A stretch of DNA of 64,000 nt, taken from NCBI GenBank assembly GCA_902535745.1, contig CACAUR010000006.1, positions 1 through 64,000 on the forward strand, read 5' to 3'. Positions 11,651 through 33,828 of this stretch are shown piece by piece; position 1 is the stretch's first letter, and the number at the start of each line of letters is the position of its first letter. The DNA is from an uncultured Pelagibacteraceae bacterium (GTDB lineage: Bacteria; Pseudomonadota; Alphaproteobacteria; Pelagibacterales; Pelagibacteraceae). Position numbers and translations under genes: made by a program. The notes under the pieces were generated by a model. It was given only the letters and a program-made list of their open reading frames with translations. It searched no databases and was not told where the DNA came from.

Positions 11651-12178
11651 ATGGACTTAAAAAAATTTATTAGATCTATACCTGATTATCCTAAGAAGGG
11701 AATTTTATTTAGGGACATTACAACTTTAATTAAAGATGAAAAAGCTTTTGAAGAGACAATCAATCAAATAGTTGAAAGATCAAAAAAATTTAAGTTTAAT
11801 AAAATTGCAGCTATCGAGTCTAGAGGTTTTATTTTTGCATCTGCAGCTTCATATATTCTAAAGAAACCTTTTATAATGTTAAGAAAAAAAAATAAGTTAC
11901 CTGCTGAAACTCATTCAATAGATTTTGAATTAGAGTATGGAACGGCAACTATTGAAGTACATAAGGACTCGGTAAATGAGAATGACACTGTTTTAATAAT
12001 TGATGATTTAATTGCTACAGGTGGAACAGCTGAGGCAGCTTCAAGACTTATTGAAATCTCAAAAGGAAAAGTGGGGGCATTTATTTTTGTTATAAACTTA
12101 TTTGACCTAGGTGGATCTGATAAATTAATTGAAAAAGGTTTTAAAGTTGAAAACTTAATTAATTTTCCAGGCCATTAA
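11651..12178 (+). CDS. apt: Adenine phosphoribosyltransferase
   Basis: A 175-residue type I phosphoribosyltransferase. It converts adenine and PRPP to AMP in purine salvage. The N-terminus has IPDYPKKGILFRDITTL, the standard Apt start, and the PRPP loop is VLIIDDLIATGGTAEAA. Length is normal. It is divergent from the mtnP operon (about 80 bases between starts), whose MtnP generates adenine, so the pair closes the adenine cycle. The 3' end overlaps the convergent GT2 gene by four bases. Confidence 0.96.
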   Translation: MDLKKFIRSIPDYPKKGILFRDITTLIKDEKAFEETINQIVERSKKFKFNKIAAIESRGFIFASAASYILKKPFIMLRKKNKLPAETHSIDFELEYGTATIEVHKDSVNENDTVLIIDDLIATGGTAEAASRLIEISKGKVGAFIFVINLFDLGGSDKLIEKGFKVENLINFPGH

Positions 12179-13041
12179 TTTATTTCTGGCCTGTACCATG
12201 ATTTTTTACCGAATAAAGCATTTATGGTGCCTGACATTCTCATTTTATAGATATTTTTTTTTTTGTTGAAAGTGAGTAAGCAGGTAGAATATTTTATAAA
12301 GTTTCCTAATAAACTAATTAATCCCAATAATAGCGAGACAAAAATACCACGATGTTTTTTATTAAAATAAAATCTTGACCACATCCAATGCCAATTTCTT
12401 GAAAGTTCAATCTCCTCACTAAATTTATCATCAACAGCTCTGGATCCTAAGTGATGAATTTTAGAATTTGTAACAATATATAGTTTTCCACCATTTTTTT
12501 TTGCTCTTAAACATAAGTCAACGTTTTCTAAGTACATAAAAAATTTTTCATCAAAAAAAAAATTATCATCAAAACAATCTTTATTAATAATCATTGAATA
12601 ACCATCAATCTCTTCGACATTACTAATTGATTTGCCATCATCTTTTAGTATCTCAGCAGAATTACTTCTATAATTTGGATAAAGGTGATTATCTGATAAG
12701 GGCGATAAGATTGCAAAATTATCTAATTTGGAAATCGAATTATTGATATTAAGTATGGTATCTTTTTTTAAAACTACATCTGGATTTAAGACATAAACAT
12801 ATTGTGTATTTGATTTGAAAATACCCAGATTATTTCCAGCCCCCATACCTATATTCTCAGACAAAACTACCTCAGTTTTATCATAATTTTGCTCTAATTC
12901 TTTTTTTAATTCTTTATCAGATGAATTTTCAATTATTAATTTACTAAAATCTTTTGGTAGAGAATTTAGACAATCATATATTACTTTTCTACTTTTAAAC
13001 GTGACTATAACAAAGGTTAGATTACTACTTGTAAATTCCAT
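12175..13041 (-). CDS. Glycosyltransferase family 2 (rhamnosyltransferase-like)
   Basis: A GT-A fold glycosyltransferase of about 288 residues, starting MEFTSSNLTFVIVTFKS. Conserved segments are NIGMGAGNNLGI, the metal-site VLNPDV and the C-terminal acceptor motif FFMYLENVDLCLRAKKNG with a later HHLGSRA. These are typical of WbbL/RfbF-like family 2 enzymes that transfer rhamnose or similar deoxysugars to O-antigen. An upstream in-frame extension of 39 codons is open but hydrophobic and would overlap rfbB, so I place the start at 13041. It is divergent from the rfbBAC genes, which would supply its dTDP-sugar donor. Confidence 0.87.
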   Translation of the reverse strand: MEFTSSNLTFVIVTFKSRKVIYDCLNSLPKDFSKLIIENSSDKELKKELEQNYDKTEVVLSENIGMGAGNNLGIFKSNTQYVYVLNPDVVLKKDTILNINNSISKLDNFAILSPLSDNHLYPNYRSNSAEILKDDGKSISNVEEIDGYSMIINKDCFDDNFFFDEKFFMYLENVDLCLRAKKNGGKLYIVTNSKIHHLGSRAVDDKFSEEIELSRNWHWMWSRFYFNKKHRGIFVSLLLGLISLLGNFIKYSTCLLTFNKKKNIYKMRMSGTINALFGKKSWYRPEIN

Positions 13042-13090
13042 GTGAGAATAAAGTATACTTAAAATAACTATTGTTGTAAAAAAAAAAGTA

Positions 13091-14113
13091 ATGAAAAAAA
13101 TTATTGTAACTGGTGGTCTAGGATTTATTGGGAGTAATCTTATAAAACTGTTAATCAAGAAAAACTATTTTGTAGTAAACGTTGATAAAGTTAACTATGC
13201 TTCAAATTTTTACAATACAAGTAATTTTTCAAAAAAGAAAAATTATAAATTTGTAAGACTAGACATAAATAACAAGTTTAAACTAAAAAAAATTTTAAAA
13301 TTACACAAGCCTATTGCCATTTTTAACCTAGCAGCAGAAACACACGTGGATAGATCAATTGACTCTCCTGCTGAATTTATAAAAAGTAATATAGTTGGAG
13401 TATTCAATTTACTCGAGGTATTTAAAGAATTTACAAAAAAAAACAAAAAAGCTAAATTAATTCATATTTCTACTGATGAAGTTTATGGAGATGTTCTGAA
13501 AGGTAGAAGTAAAGAAACTGATCCTTATAAACCAAGCTCGCCTTATGCTGCATCAAAGGCATCGTCGGATCATCTCGTATACTCTTACGTTAGAACTTTT
13601 AAACTTAACGCGATGATAACAAATTGTTCAAACAATTATGGACCTCATCAACATCCTGAAAAACTAATTCCAAAATTAATTTATAACATAATTAATAATA
13701 AACCTCTGACTTTATATGGTAGAGGAAAAAATTCTAGAGAATGGATATTTGTCGATGATCACTGTGATGCCTTGTTTAAAGTATTTAAAAATGGAAATAA
13801 GGGAGAATTTTATAATATTGGATCTAACATAAATAGCAGTAATTTTGATATCGCAAAACTATTAATAGAAATCTCTAAAAAGAAAATAAAATTAGGCAAA
13901 AACGTTAAAATAAAATTTATAAAAGATAGGCCTGGACACGATTTTAGGTACGCTTTAAATAGTAAAAAAGTTTTAAACAAACTTAAATGGAAATCCAGAG
14001 TAAATCTTAAAAAAGGTTTAGAAAATACCTTTAACTGGTATTTAGAAAATATGAAATACTATACAACTTTAAAAAAAAGAGATATCACAAAGAGACTTGG
14101 AATGGTTAAATGA
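13091..14113 (+). CDS. rfbB: dTDP-glucose 4,6-dehydratase
   Basis: A 340-residue extended short-chain dehydrogenase. It turns dTDP-glucose into dTDP-4-keto-6-deoxyglucose using bound NAD. The Rossmann motif is GGLGFIGSNL at residues 8-17. HISTDEVYGDVLKG supplies the T-D-E catalytic region, and SPYAASKASSDHLV holds the YxxxK pair. PHQHPEKLIPKLI, GRGKNSREWIFVDDHC and RPGHDFRYA are all diagnostic of RmlB. A long A-run precedes the ATG with no clear Shine-Dalgarno. Its stop overlaps rfbA (ATGA), so the rfbBAC genes form one operon. Confidence 0.95.
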   Translation: MKKIIVTGGLGFIGSNLIKLLIKKNYFVVNVDKVNYASNFYNTSNFSKKKNYKFVRLDINNKFKLKKILKLHKPIAIFNLAAETHVDRSIDSPAEFIKSNIVGVFNLLEVFKEFTKKNKKAKLIHISTDEVYGDVLKGRSKETDPYKPSSPYAASKASSDHLVYSYVRTFKLNAMITNCSNNYGPHQHPEKLIPKLIYNIINNKPLTLYGRGKNSREWIFVDDHCDALFKVFKNGNKGEFYNIGSNINSSNFDIAKLLIEISKKKIKLGKNVKIKFIKDRPGHDFRYALNSKKVLNKLKWKSRVNLKKGLENTFNWYLENMKYYTTLKKRDITKRLGMVK

Positions 14114-14979
14114 TCAATAAAGCAATTATTTTAGCTGGTGGCATGGGCACTCGAATGAGTCCTCTAACCAAAGCAGTTAACAAACAACTGCTTCCTATCT
14201 ATGATAAACCATTAATCTTTTATCCTCTTTCAATTTTGATGTTAGCAAAAATAAAAGATATTTTAATCATAGTAAATAAAGGTCAACTAAATCAATATAA
14301 AAAGATTTTACCAGACGGAAAACGTTTAGGAATAAATTTAATTTATAAAGAACAAAAATATCCAAAAGGTCTGCCTGACGCATTTCTTTTAGGAGAAAAA
14401 TTTATAAACAACAAAAATGTGGCATTAATTCTTGGGGATAATTTTTTCTACGGGCAGAATTTAACATCTAAACTGATAAATTGTACAAAACTTAAAAATG
14501 GTGCAAAAGTTATTTTGCATAAAGTAATTAAACCTGAACTATTTGGTGTGGCGAAAACGTCTAAAAGTGGAAAGATTTTATCAATAAAAGAGAAGCCAAA
14601 AAATATATTTCTGATCTGGCAATTACTGGATTGTATTTTTTTGATAAAAAGGTTGTTGAATACGCAAAAAAAACTTAAACCTTCATCTAGAAATGAACTA
14701 GAGATTACTGATTTACTAAAATTTTATTTAAAGAAAAAAAAATTAACATCAGATATTTTAGGTAGAGGCGGTGCCTGGTTAGATACTGGCTCAATAGAGG
14801 ATTTTTATAAAACTAGTGCTTTTGTCTCAGCGATAGAAAATAGACAGGGCTTTAAAATTGCATGTATTGAAGAAATTGCTTTTAATAATAAATGGATAGG
14901 AAAAAAAGAAATTCTAGATGCAATTCAATTTTATGGTAGGTGTGATTACACAAATTATATCAAAAAATTAATATCATAA
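14110..14979 (+). CDS. rfbA: Glucose-1-phosphate thymidylyltransferase with an internal frame-shifted segment
   Basis: A 289-residue RmlA homologue making dTDP-glucose from dTTP and glucose-1-phosphate. The N-terminal LAGGMGTRMSPLTKAVNKQL loop, GDNFFYGQ, SIKEKP and WLDTGS are all present. Residues about 166-185 read as nonsense relative to the family, yet the +1 frame of the same bases spells the expected SDLAITGLYFFDKKVVEYA. The segment is bounded by a six-A run (14598-14603) and an eight-A run (14666-14673). One A too few and one too many would restore a normal protein with seven A each. This is either two compensating indels or two sequencing errors. As written, part of the nucleotide-sugar pocket is disrupted. 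Confidence 0.9.
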   Translation: MINKAIILAGGMGTRMSPLTKAVNKQLLPIYDKPLIFYPLSILMLAKIKDILIIVNKGQLNQYKKILPDGKRLGINLIYKEQKYPKGLPDAFLLGEKFINNKNVALILGDNFFYGQNLTSKLINCTKLKNGAKVILHKVIKPELFGVAKTSKSGKILSIKEKPKNIFLIWQLLDCIFLIKRLLNTQKKLKPSSRNELEITDLLKFYLKKKKLTSDILGRGGAWLDTGSIEDFYKTSAFVSAIENRQGFKIACIEEIAFNNKWIGKKEILDAIQFYGRCDYTNYIKKLIS

Positions 14980-15534
14980 ATGAAAAAAATAAAAACAAAA
15001 TTTAAAGATTTATTTGTTGTAAATACAAGAGTCTTTAAGGATAATAGGGGTTGGCTAAAAGAAGAATTCAAAAAAAATTTCATTAAAAAAAATTTAGTTT
15101 TTTCGTTAGTATCAAGTTCAAAAAGATATGTGTTGCGTGGTCTTCATATGCAGACAAAAAAACCACAAGATAAATTTTTATCTGTGCTTAAGGGTAGAGT
15201 GCTTGATGTTGCAGTTGATTTAAGAAAAAACTCTAAAACATACGGAAAGCATTTTAAAACTGTTTTAAGTGATAAAAATGGTAAACATTTATTTGTTCCA
15301 AGAGGCTTTGCACATGGAATTTTAGGATTAGATAAAGAAAATATCCTTCATTATATTTGCTCGAACTATAGAGATCCTAAAAGCGAAATATCAATTAAAT
15401 GGAATGATAAAGATTTAAAGATAAATTGGGGAGTGAAAAAACCAATTCTTTCTAAAAAAGATAGGGTGGCTATTTCATTTAAAGATTTTAAAAAAAAAAA
15501 TAAAAACAGGAAAAAAATTATTAAATTGTGGTAG
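14980..15534 (+). CDS. rfbC: dTDP-4-dehydrorhamnose 3,5-epimerase
   Basis: A 184-residue cupin-fold epimerase acting on dTDP-4-keto-6-deoxyglucose. It shows DNRGWLKEEF, VLRGLHMQ (catalytic His), KGRVLDVAVDLRKNSKTYG and LFVPRGFAHGIL, all RmlC signatures. It starts at the base after the rfbA stop. A reductase (rfbD) does not follow, so the final sugar (rhamnose or another 6-deoxyhexose) is unresolved from this window. Its stop codon lies inside the 3' end of the tRNA-Met gene on the opposite strand. Confidence 0.94.
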   Translation: MKKIKTKFKDLFVVNTRVFKDNRGWLKEEFKKNFIKKNLVFSLVSSSKRYVLRGLHMQTKKPQDKFLSVLKGRVLDVAVDLRKNSKTYGKHFKTVLSDKNGKHLFVPRGFAHGILGLDKENILHYICSNYRDPKSEISIKWNDKDLKINWGVKKPILSKKDRVAISFKDFKKKNKNRKKIIKLW

Positions 15535-15605
15535 CGGGAAGTGGGATCGAACCACTGACCTCGGGCTTATGAGTCCCGCGCTCTAACCAACTGAGCTACC
15601 CCGCC
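15529..15605 (-). tRNA. tRNA-Met (CAT anticodon, elongator type)
   Basis: The minus strand folds as a complete 77-base tRNA with encoded CCA (15529-15531). Acceptor GGCGGGG pairs with TCCCGCT (G1-U72 and G7-U66 wobbles). The D stem is GCTC/GAGC. The anticodon loop is CTCATAA with CAT, and the T arm is AGTGG-TTCGATC-CCACT. The start GGCGGGGTAGCTCAG and end CCCGCTACCA fit elongator tRNA-Met. A tRNA-Ile2 read after lysidine modification is less likely. Position 31-39 of the anticodon stem is an A-G mismatch. The 3' end overlaps the rfbC stop codon. Confidence 0.95.
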
Positions 15606-15608
15606 ATT
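15581..15608. repeat. 28-base direct repeat, copy 1 (5' half of tRNA-Met)
   Basis: These 28 bases, covering the D arm and 5' acceptor strand of the tRNA-Met plus three bases upstream, recur exactly at 16800-16827. The two copies bracket the dioxygenase-like gene at 15.7-16.76 kb. Confidence 0.9.
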
Positions 15609-15703
15609 CTATTCGTATTGGTATATAATACTTTTTATTATTCATACAATCAATAATTTTAAAAAAATTTCTAATTTTACTTATTGAACTCAATTATGTT
15701 AAA

Positions 15704-16756
15704 TTGTTATCTGTGAATATTAAACAATACACAAAAGAAAAGCTCACAAAAATAAAAGAAAATAAAATTTGGTACTATTTTATAAGATTTATTTTTATAC
15801 CATTTTTTAATTTTGTATGGGTTAATGTTATTAATTTTGAGGGAAGATTATTAGCTATTTTTTATCAGTTTAAAAAAAAAAATTTTTATAAAATTAATAA
15901 ACATGAGGATGTTAAACTAATAGAAAATGATCCTGACTTTCAAGAAATAGCAACTAAAATAAAAAGAGCAATTGACGAAAGATTAATTAATCAAATAAAA
16001 AATGATTTGTTCTCAAAAAAATTTGATGACCCTTCTAAAAACCAGTATAATGATTACAGAAAAGATTTTTTTCCGTTATTACCTGATGATGTTAAAGATG
16101 AAGTTGTAAAATTTGCATTATCAGAAAAAAATTTACTTACAGCAACAAAATATTTAAAGGTTTTTCCCGTAATTAAGAAAATAATCGTAAATCTTAATAT
16201 ACCTAGATCAGATAAAGAAAAAGGCGCTCAACTTTGGCATAAGGACGACTTTGGATACAAGAGTTTAGATATTTTTTTGGCAGTATCTGATATTGATATC
16301 AATAACGGGCCGCTCTATTTTCTTAAAGCAAAAAATCCACTTGGTGTTTTTTTTAAAATTAAAAAAGTTGTTAAAAACGCATTGCCTGGGGAAAGGAATA
16401 AAGTAACATTAGATATTTTTTCAAACTATTATAATGAAAGTGAGATAGGTGCTTTAATAGGCAAAAGTGGTACCTCTGTTTATGTAGATAGTTTCACAAA
16501 ATATCATAGAGGTGGTTTTTGTAAGTCTAAAGATAGAATAATGTTAAGAATTAGTTATCAAACACCAGATAGTTCAAGAGGGAATGAGTCTTATGACCCT
16601 GAAAAATTTTCTTATTATCCTAAAATTTTAAAAAAAGATGTTAAAAATATTTTTCATAAATATGCGATGTTTAAAACTAGAAATAAGTTTTTTAAATTTA
16701 TAAAAATAGATAATATAATTTTATTTTTAATAAAAATTTTCCATTATAAAATGTGA
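15704..16756 (+). CDS. Phytanoyl-CoA dioxygenase-like Fe(II)/2-oxoglutarate oxygenase
   Basis: A protein of about 350 residues. The double-stranded beta-helix metal site is visible: H179-K-D181 in QLWHKDDFGY, then H268 in TKYHRGGF, with R278 in DRIMLRISY as the probable 2-oxoglutarate anchor. The N-terminus has an aromatic, possibly membrane-associated stretch (WYYFIRFIFIPFFNFVWV). No ATG fits: the first possible codons are TTG at 15704 and GTG at 15713, so the start is uncertain. It lies alone between a tRNA-Met gene and a partial copy of that tRNA, and its very Lys/Asn/Phe-rich coding suggests an acquired gene. Beside sugar genes, a role in modifying a surface glycan or lipid is possible but unproven. 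Confidence 0.75.
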   Translation: MLSVNIKQYTKEKLTKIKENKIWYYFIRFIFIPFFNFVWVNVINFEGRLLAIFYQFKKKNFYKINKHEDVKLIENDPDFQEIATKIKRAIDERLINQIKNDLFSKKFDDPSKNQYNDYRKDFFPLLPDDVKDEVVKFALSEKNLLTATKYLKVFPVIKKIIVNLNIPRSDKEKGAQLWHKDDFGYKSLDIFLAVSDIDINNGPLYFLKAKNPLGVFFKIKKVVKNALPGERNKVTLDIFSNYYNESEIGALIGKSGTSVYVDSFTKYHRGGFCKSKDRIMLRISYQTPDSSRGNESYDPEKFSYYPKILKKDVKNIFHKYAMFKTRNKFFKFIKIDNIILFLIKIFHYKM

Positions 16757-16789
16757 ATTTAAAATTTATTTAAAGTCAAATAATGTTAA

Positions 16790-16827
16790 GGGAAGTGATC
16801 TCTAACCAACTGAGCTACCCCGCCATT
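16790..16827 (-). pseudogene. tRNA-Met remnant (5' half plus a scrap of the acceptor)
   Basis: Bases 16800-16827 exactly match the 5' half of the upstream tRNA-Met with its flank, and 16790-16797 match an eight-base piece (gggaagtg) of its 3' part. The anticodon arm and most of the T arm are missing, so it cannot be a functional tRNA. It is best read as the decayed copy left by duplication or by insertion at the tRNA. Confidence 0.85.
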
Positions 16828-16878
16828 AAGATGCAGTTGATTTATACTACTTATTTTTTTTCATTCAAACAAGAAATA

Positions 16879-17286
16879 CTAAAGATCAATATTAAATTTA
16901 GATGGTTTCCAGTTTTTTGGCGCTAATTCTAAGTCGCTAAATTCGAAAGCAGGTGCTACTGTACAACCTATCAAACTATAAGATCCTGATGATTTCATTG
17001 CAAACCAAGTTTCTTTTTCAATATTAAAATTGAAATTATTTTTTGATCCGATTTCATTAGTTTTAAATTCATTTCCATCTTCAGAAGTGTAAATTAATAA
17101 TGGGCTACCTGAGTAAAAATGCAAAGTCTCATTTTTTGTTATTCGATGCCAATGAGAATGTTCATGTTGCTCTAACAAAAAATAAATATGACTTACATCT
17201 TTATTTTTAAATATTTCAACATAATGTCCACCCTCTGGGTGTGCTATCATTTTATGATATTTGATTAGTGATTTAGCAATGTTCAT
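16879..17286 (-). CDS. DUF985 cupin-domain protein
   Basis: A 135-residue single-domain cupin. It has MIAHPEGGHYVEIF near the N-terminus, the metal-site HSHWHRITKNETLHFYSG (His-x-His and a distal His), ETWFAM and C-terminal VAPAFEFSDLELA. These are the conserved blocks of the DUF985/YML079w-like family. Members are metal-binding cupins of uncertain activity; some act on nucleotide sugars or bind small ligands. It follows the small membrane-protein gene by 13 bases and may be co-transcribed with it. Confidence 0.88.
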   Translation of the reverse strand: MNIAKSLIKYHKMIAHPEGGHYVEIFKNKDVSHIYFLLEQHEHSHWHRITKNETLHFYSGSPLLIYTSEDGNEFKTNEIGSKNNFNFNIEKETWFAMKSSGSYSLIGCTVAPAFEFSDLELAPKNWKPSKFNIDL

Positions 17287-17299
17287 TCAAATTATATTT

Positions 17300-17482
17300 T
17301 TATGACGCAATATATTTTATTAAGTAATAAAGTATACCTGTAACTATTGTAGCATATACAAAACCTAGGAAAAAAAGTTTAATTATATCATTTTGTTTTT
17401 TATAATTGGTCTTTAAGTAAATATAAATTTGAGTGTATATGCCAACTATAGCTATACTTAACAATATATCAGTGGGATTCAT
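17300..17482 (-). CDS. Small two-span membrane protein
   Basis: A 60-residue hydrophobic protein with two probable membrane segments (about residues 5-23 and 35-57) separated by a short Lys/Asn loop. I recognise no family. It lies 13 bases upstream of the DUF985 cupin gene on the same strand. The reading frame and membrane topology support a real gene, but there is no functional clue. Confidence 0.55.
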   Translation of the reverse strand: MNPTDILLSIAIVGIYTQIYIYLKTNYKKQNDIIKLFFLGFVYATIVTGILYYLIKYIAS

Positions 17483-17566
17483 TGTATTAGTTTATATATC
17501 AACAACATTAAATCCTTCAACTAACTTTATTGATGAATTGGTCGAATAATTTACTTAGACTTTAAA

Positions 17567-32538: not shown

Positions 32539-33828
32539 ATGACAATTAAATATTTAAAAAAAGCTACTAAAACAGCATCCACAGATGATACTAAAACCAA
32601 AGAGATAGTTCAAAATCTTTTAAAAGAACTTGAAAAATCAAAAGAGGAAGGCTGTAAAGAGCTAACAAATAAATTTGATAAATATGAGGGTGAAATAATT
32701 GTCTCTAAAGAAAAAATTGAAGACATCAAAAAAAAATTAGATCAAAAAACTAAAGATGATGTCAAGTTTTCTCACGATAGAGTAAAAAAATTTGCTGAGG
32801 CTCAATTAAAAAACTATGGTCAAGACTTTGAAGTTGAGCTTTCAAAAGGATTATATGCTGGACAAAAACTAGTACCGGTAAATACTGCTGGATGCTATAT
32901 ACCCGGAGGAAGATACGCTCATATTGCTTCAGCTGTTATGAGTGTAACTACCGCAAAAGTAGCAGGTGTTAAAAATATTGTTGCATGCAGTCCACCAAAA
33001 GAAAAAGTTGGTGCTCACCCTTCTATAATTTACACAGCGGACTTATGTGGTGCTGATGTAATTTTAAATTTAGGTGGAGTACCAGCAATAGCTGCAATGA
33101 CCTATGGTTTATTTGGTAATGCACCTGCTGATATTCTAGTTGGACCTGGAAATCAATTTGTGGCTGAAGCTAAAAGAATTCTCTTTGGTAAAGTTGGTAT
33201 CGATTTATTTGCTGGTCCAACAGAAATTGGAATTATAGCTGATGAAACGGCAGATCCAGAAATTGTAGCTGTTGATTTAGTCGGTCAGGCAGAACACGGA
33301 TATAATTCTCCATGTTGGTTGTATACAAAAAGTAAAAAGATTGCAGATGAAGTAATAAAAAGAGTTCCAGACTTAATAGAAAAACTTCCGGAGGTTCCAA
33401 GGCTGAGCGCTGAGGCTGCCTGGAGAGACTATGGTGAAGTTATTTTGTGTGATACTGATGAGGAATTGGCAAAAGTAAGTGATGACTACGCCCCTGAGCA
33501 CTTAGAGGTTCAAACCAAAAACCTAGAATGGTTCCATAAAAGATTAAAAAATTATGGCTCATTATTTATCGGAGAAGAAACAACGGTTGCTTACGGAGAT
33601 AAATGTTCTGGTACCAATCATATACTTCCGACCAAAGGTGCAGGTAAATATACAGGTGGGTTATTTGTTGGTAAATTTATTAAGACTTTAAGTTTTCAAA
33701 GAATGACGAAAGAGTCTACTAAAGAGGTAGGATCTGCTGCAGCAAGAATATCTAGATACGAAGGTATGGAAGCTCATGCTAGAACAGGCGATGTGAGACT
33801 AAAAAAATATGGATACTCACAAAAATAA
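32539..33828 (+). CDS. HisD-like zinc dehydrogenase, probably sulfopropanediol 3-dehydrogenase (HpsN type)
   Basis: A 429-residue member of the histidinol dehydrogenase superfamily. Zinc ligands Q250, H253, D354 and H413 and the catalytic pair E320-H321 (in APEHLE) are all present. The segment IPGGRYAHIASAVMS at 121-135 replaces the PGGTAPLxS pattern of true HisD. In my knowledge this marks the HpsN group, which oxidises (R)-2,3-dihydroxypropane-1-sulfonate to sulfolactate. No histidine-biosynthesis gene is adjacent; instead sulfonate-type transport, LDH2-type and Pta genes are. It starts 23 bases after pta. Biosynthetic HisD remains possible if this is the only copy in the genome. Confidence 0.85.
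   Translation: MTIKYLKKATKTASTDDTKTKEIVQNLLKELEKSKEEGCKELTNKFDKYEGEIIVSKEKIEDIKKKLDQKTKDDVKFSHDRVKKFAEAQLKNYGQDFEVELSKGLYAGQKLVPVNTAGCYIPGGRYAHIASAVMSVTTAKVAGVKNIVACSPPKEKVGAHPSIIYTADLCGADVILNLGGVPAIAAMTYGLFGNAPADILVGPGNQFVAEAKRILFGKVGIDLFAGPTEIGIIADETADPEIVAVDLVGQAEHGYNSPCWLYTKSKKIADEVIKRVPDLIEKLPEVPRLSAEAAWRDYGEVILCDTDEELAKVSDDYAPEHLEVQTKNLEWFHKRLKNYGSLFIGEETTVAYGDKCSGTNHILPTKGAGKYTGGLFVGKFIKTLSFQRMTKESTKEVGSAAARISRYEGMEAHARTGDVRLKKYGYSQK

Follow-up and report, generated by a model that had tools for sequence, protein, structure and literature searches.

The rml locus of the window

The DNA analysed is a stretch of 64,000 nucleotides (the window) from the draft genome G000, which comprises 919,735 bases in 27 contigs, is 81% complete, and has uncultured Pelagibacteraceae (SAR11) as its nearest named relatives. 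AG- or AH- isolate names are attached to 75 of the 80 named relatives, which we take to be single-cell assemblies from the centre of a benchmarked marine single-cell workflow, and some records are titled MAG. We infer that the G000 assembly derives from a single cell.

Three rml genes follow one another on the plus strand: rmlB (dTDP-glucose 4,6-dehydratase, 13091–14113), rmlA, also named rfbA (glucose-1-phosphate thymidylyltransferase, 14110–14979), and rmlC (dTDP-4-dehydrorhamnose 3,5-epimerase, 14980–15534). The frames of rmlB and rmlC are open and both products exceed the cut-offs of their families (TIGR01181, 401.2 bits; TIGR01221, 173.7 bits). The rmlA frame encodes 289 residues and is open as written.

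A minus-strand ORF (12175–13158, with a TTG start as listed) shares 68 bases with the beginning of rmlB; its true start is likely later than listed and, by eye, it looks like a glycosyltransferase gene. Its counterpart in the relative G016 (C1 near 154395, L161) loses its frame at an A6 run. On the other side of the locus, DNA similarity between the window and six relatives stops near 15520–15550 (near 14990 for G064) and resumes near 17560, so the genes at about 15540–17560 look like a variable insert, judged from these DNA comparisons; an exception to the gap is a short similar stretch near 15510–15660.

A profile search placed the rmlA product best in TIGR01207, with residues 4–288 aligned to profile positions 1–285 of 286 (E 1.4e-94), a full-length match whose 316.4 bits miss the cut-off of 360.65. 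The RmlA of a near relative, L053 (AG-914-A09), reaches 355.6 bits and likewise falls below this cut-off. The window protein passes the PF00483 cut-off with 167.1 bits. Relative to L053 it scores 39 bits lower with TIGR01207 and 32 bits lower with PF00483, while the matches are still full length. Columns that are invariant with the window protein included comprise G10, G11, G13, T14 and R15, in what is presumably the nucleotide-binding N-terminal motif, and the acidic residues D110 and D225.

A segment of rmlA is written out of frame

The anomaly in rmlA is bounded by two runs, an A6 run at 14598–14603 and an A8 run at 14666–14673, both exactly where the earlier note had placed them. The first is one base short of CCN AAA AAA, a codon pattern common in relatives (net −1), and the second has one base more than its counterparts in relatives (net +1) and restores the frame. 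The 22 codons between (14602–14667, residues 165–186) are out of frame and read NIFLIWQLLDCIFLIKRLLNTQ, which is unlike RmlA, as the note had stated, in an ORF that stays open from 14110 to 14979. A family-like segment, YISDLAITGLYFFDKKVVEYAK, is present in codons counted from 14604 (the main-frame codon starts one base later, at 14605); the frame had been called +1 and is strictly −1 (+2). Against G016, 17 of 18 residues match in the shifted frame vs 3 of 18 in the main frame, so the hidden family segment is, on this alignment, far beyond chance. The further proposal of seven A at each run holds as to the net changes of −1 and then +1. As to the original run lengths, the two nearest relatives read CCT followed by A6 and GCG followed by A6 and other relatives differ again, so that parental runs of seven A are only one possibility. 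The note had also foreseen that length and flanks would look intact and the break be overlooked, and indeed the cancelling pair keeps the ORF open and leaves no broken gene visible.

Two partly overlapping sets of relatives were compared (G016 and L071, for example, are the same contig). The first comprises the best 80 of 349 loci that a search with the window protein turned up; they were picked by peptide patterns taken from this protein, and one of these patterns overlaps the first junction. Across residues 164–186 the window protein matches the consensus of these 80 (best 80 of 349) at 2 of 23 positions (0.087), compared with 0.876 outside the segment, and the lowest of these relatives matches at 0.70 within it. 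In all 80 (again the best 80 of 349) the residues that follow EKP are in frame and resemble KKYISDLAITGLYFFDKKVVEYAKK. The second set came from a search of 61 genomes, 58 of which matched to some degree; of the 30 loci extracted one was the window's own, and the family segment is in frame in all 29 others. For the earlier note, relatives with the same in-frame residues as the window would have counted against its observation; none of the 80 (best 80 of 349) and none of the 29 has them. Across 399 genomes from the genus, a search by DNA similarity gave some match in 326, many of them weak. In a viral collection 37 stretches matched a pattern and one encodes an RmlA relative: the IMG/VR contig L133 (2277–3065), whose distant relative has 28% identity over query residues 2–244.

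The hidden frame retains the signature of a coding sequence. Over 21 of its codons, differences from the 20 nearest relatives number 33, 8 and 126 at codon positions 1, 2 and 3, and the comparison with L053 gives six synonymous and no non-synonymous codon differences. By this pattern of substitution, the hidden frame was under selection until very recently, or is so still; the shift is thus either very recent or not real. Along the 3.9 kb that the window shares with L053 at 92% identity, the two runs hold the only one-base indels within the three rml genes; indels of four bases and two bases lie near the end of rmlC. In the alignment to L054 the aligner places a further −1 and +1 in rmlC, separated by five bases, a pair that we took for an alignment effect. 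At the first site, L053 and L054 have T rather than A opposite the missing base, which is less typical of a homopolymer error.

Consequences for the written protein

Eight residues that are invariant in 27 aligned relatives are lost from the written segment: S168, A171, T173, G174, Y176, F178, D179 and V182. The conserved segment after EKP (S-D-L-A-I-T-G-L-Y-F), which presumably adjoins the sugar pocket of RmlA, is absent from the frame as written. PDB 1mp5 carries a change at Y177 of the S. enterica enzyme, a residue that by our own mapping, with a one-residue offset, would fall within this segment. The pocket residues named in a passage of PMC10375476 (Y146, E256 and D104) all lie outside it.

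We compared AlphaFold2 models of the window protein and of L053 RmlA. With mean pLDDT of 68 and 78 their quality is middling, and we relied on them solely for the contrast within the segment, where mean pLDDT for residues 161–170 and 171–180 is 54 and 54 in the window protein vs 86 and 90 in L053. The strand at 170–178 drawn for the relative is still drawn for the window protein, so the written protein may still adopt the fold.

Other one-base frame breaks in the same assembly

We scanned G000, G016 and G012 for ORFs whose match in another genome continues in a different frame. The bases read were 853,905 of 919,735 for G000, 687,618 for G016 and 1,200,000 of 1,343,202 for G012, a one-contig SAR11 genome. 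For G000 the scan gave 21 candidate rows, 12 of which, at seven sites, were kept. The nine rows at other sites were dropped by eye as gene boundaries or overlapping or antisense ORFs, C4:79513 among them still being a candidate. Each of the seven sites is a one-base break in a gene conserved in relatives: in rpoC (C11:12667) at a short T run, in tig (C8:7312) either at an A6 run or at the short run of T that follows, and further in a ygfZ-like gene (C2:67480), mrdA (C4:34565), pxpA (C4:47728), one of two hisD genes (C5:56862) and an unnamed ORF of 237 residues (C5:62942). The rpoC and tig breaks were each found with one reference. Five of the seven sites lie at runs of at least seven bases (G7, A8, A10, A7 and A7), and as we read the alignments four of the seven lack a base and three have one too many.

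Family searches bear on how unusual these breaks are. G000 was the only genome in which a gene lay on a single contig as neighbouring pieces read in different frames, and this for rpoC (61 genomes, 47 matching), for mrdA among the matches listed (61 genomes, at least 59 matching), for hisD (41 genomes, 36 with matches) and for tig (41 genomes, 34 with matches); incomplete matches in some other genomes are taken to be contig ends. The hisD break alone could be tolerated, since a second, intact hisD of G000 lies inside the window (32608–33798). A cell without RpoC is not viable, and the broken rpoC therefore argues that the G000 assembly carries false indels, although an intact second copy of rpoC or mrdA in the missing part of this assembly is formally possible.

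Frame breaks at A runs are not peculiar to G000, as G012 and G016 also have some. The scan gave 17 rows for G012, with two sites backed by both G000 and G016 as references, and 11 rows for G016, of which about two sites are plausible by eye. In G012 (C1), mraY is split at an A9 run near 185574 (L229) and a glycosyltransferase gene at an A11 run near 1011402 (L270); further candidates at long A runs have one reference each. The mraY and glycosyltransferase breaks are either errors or tolerated slippage sites. If they are tolerated, the inference from most of the seven G000 sites is weaker, with the short run of rpoC unaffected.

Compensated segments elsewhere

A second scan, which skipped stretches with alignment gaps, sought short parts of ORFs whose similarity to relatives is higher in another frame than in their own. 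In G000, with 492 ORFs judged by G016 and 743 by G012, it returned rmlA only. In the reverse direction, with G000 as the reference, 492 ORFs of G016 returned nothing beyond the mirror image of rmlA, and 742 ORFs of G012 returned this mirror image and one weak match (8 of 18). No compensated segment was found in either direction between G016 and G012 (469 ORFs each). Low identity in 450 G000 ORF pairs marked 12 G000 windows, rmlA included; the other 11 are absent from the compensated scan and were taken for ordinary divergence or gaps.

Origin of the shift

The earlier note had offered three readings: paired sequencing or assembly errors, slippage on poly(A) and real compensating mutations. The first is now the best supported, since the same assembly holds other false-looking one-base indels, including those in rpoC and mrdA, genes that could not be broken in a live cell. 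We consider it probable that two single-base errors at A runs, from amplification, sequencing or assembly, explain the rmlA shift. One base would have been lost at 14598–14603 and one gained at 14666–14673 during one of these processes, and the cell itself would most likely have an ordinary rmlA between rmlB and rmlC. That the rmlA pair arose like the other indels of G000 we infer, as we do the step of its origin.

The expected error rate can be set beside these observations. Passages of PMC6122165 and PMC11247762 give a benchmark for the marine single-cell workflow of 3.0 indels per 100 kb (the amplification is described in PMC5519541), which over 919,735 bases amounts to about 28 indels, compared with nine seen, the rmlA pair counted and detection being limited to ORFs with a match in the references. 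Sites for such errors abound, with 3,316 A/T runs of at least seven bases in 854 kb. When indels are placed at random, two of opposite sign fall within 75 bases of each other in 0.33% of trials for nine indels in 854 kb and in 3.1% for 28 indels in 920 kb. Such a close pair is improbable if errors are independent. Both figures probably understate the chance, because poorly covered regions may collect errors and the case was chosen as a pair.

This improbability (0.3–3%) under independent error keeps alive the principal alternative, real compensating mutations, in which the deletion of a base in one run and the insertion of one in the other are genuine and the cell makes an RmlA with 22 residues replaced. 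Exact restoration of the frame within 70 bases is what selection would do, rmlA, a gene for surface polysaccharide, may be dispensable, and the modelled window protein retains its strand at 170–178. Against this, the replaced stretch gives up the eight invariant residues, its mean pLDDT drops well below that of the relative, the hidden frame without decay requires both changes to be very recent, and false-looking indels occur elsewhere in G000. We regard real compensation as unlikely. Slightly less likely again is the full picture of a living SAR11 cell with a just-arisen, exactly compensated double frameshift and 22 residues rewritten beside the RmlA sugar pocket. If true, it would catch second-site rescue in the act, with surface rhamnose perhaps altered or lost, for example under phage pressure, and it would offer an unusually direct look at compensated frameshifting in a marine bacterium from the wild.

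Alternatively, the DNA may be as written, with poly(A) slippage by RNA polymerase or ribosome giving some normal RmlA. A passage of PMC5009743 describes slippage at long poly(A) runs, which corrects 12–50% of transcripts of some frameshifted endosymbiont genes, and the contigs read here are about 70% A+T. Here, however, two opposite slips would be needed in one transcript, at A6 and A8, the first run has only six A vs runs of nine in the bacterial passage of that review, and the arrangement is kept in 0 of 80 (best 80 of 349) and 0 of 29 relatives, with no hint of selection; we judge slippage very improbable. A normal lineage-specific RmlA variant, in frame in relatives, is the least credible reading of all, being common to 0 of 80 (best 80 of 349) and 0 of 29 relatives and so ruled out by the alignments of both sets as far as they reach, with nothing found in its favour.

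Paired errors at the two runs, the reading we prefer, matter for curation: the database protein would be wrong over 22 residues at a conserved site in an ORF of normal length. Scanning for short segments better matched in another frame finds such cancelling pairs, here one in 743 ORFs. The value of the rmlA finding is for curation, and it is not a new kind of biology.

Comparison with known systems

The titles and abstract openings of the papers found on compensatory homopolymer frameshifts in bacteria and on single-cell frameshifts in SAR11 hold no report of such a case. The locus can be compared with three known systems. As a member of the RmlA/RfbA family (TIGR01207; PDB 1lvw, 1mc3, 1fxo and 1h5r), the window protein matches 1lvw over residues 4–287, keeps G10, G11, D110, E161, K162, P163 and D225, and is encoded in the order rmlB-rmlA-rmlC, whereas residues 165–186 as written are not RmlA-like. 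It shares with the slippage-rescued endosymbiont genes, as they appear in the passage of PMC5009743, an A+T-rich genome and A runs inside a coding gene, and differs from them in its need for two opposite slips, in a first run of six A and in its lack of conservation among relatives. Like the one-base indel errors of single-cell marine assemblies (MDA/WGA-X, Illumina), the changes in rmlA and at the other G000 sites lie mostly in homopolymers; unlike them, rmlA has two, of opposite sign and about 70 bases apart, which leave its ORF open.
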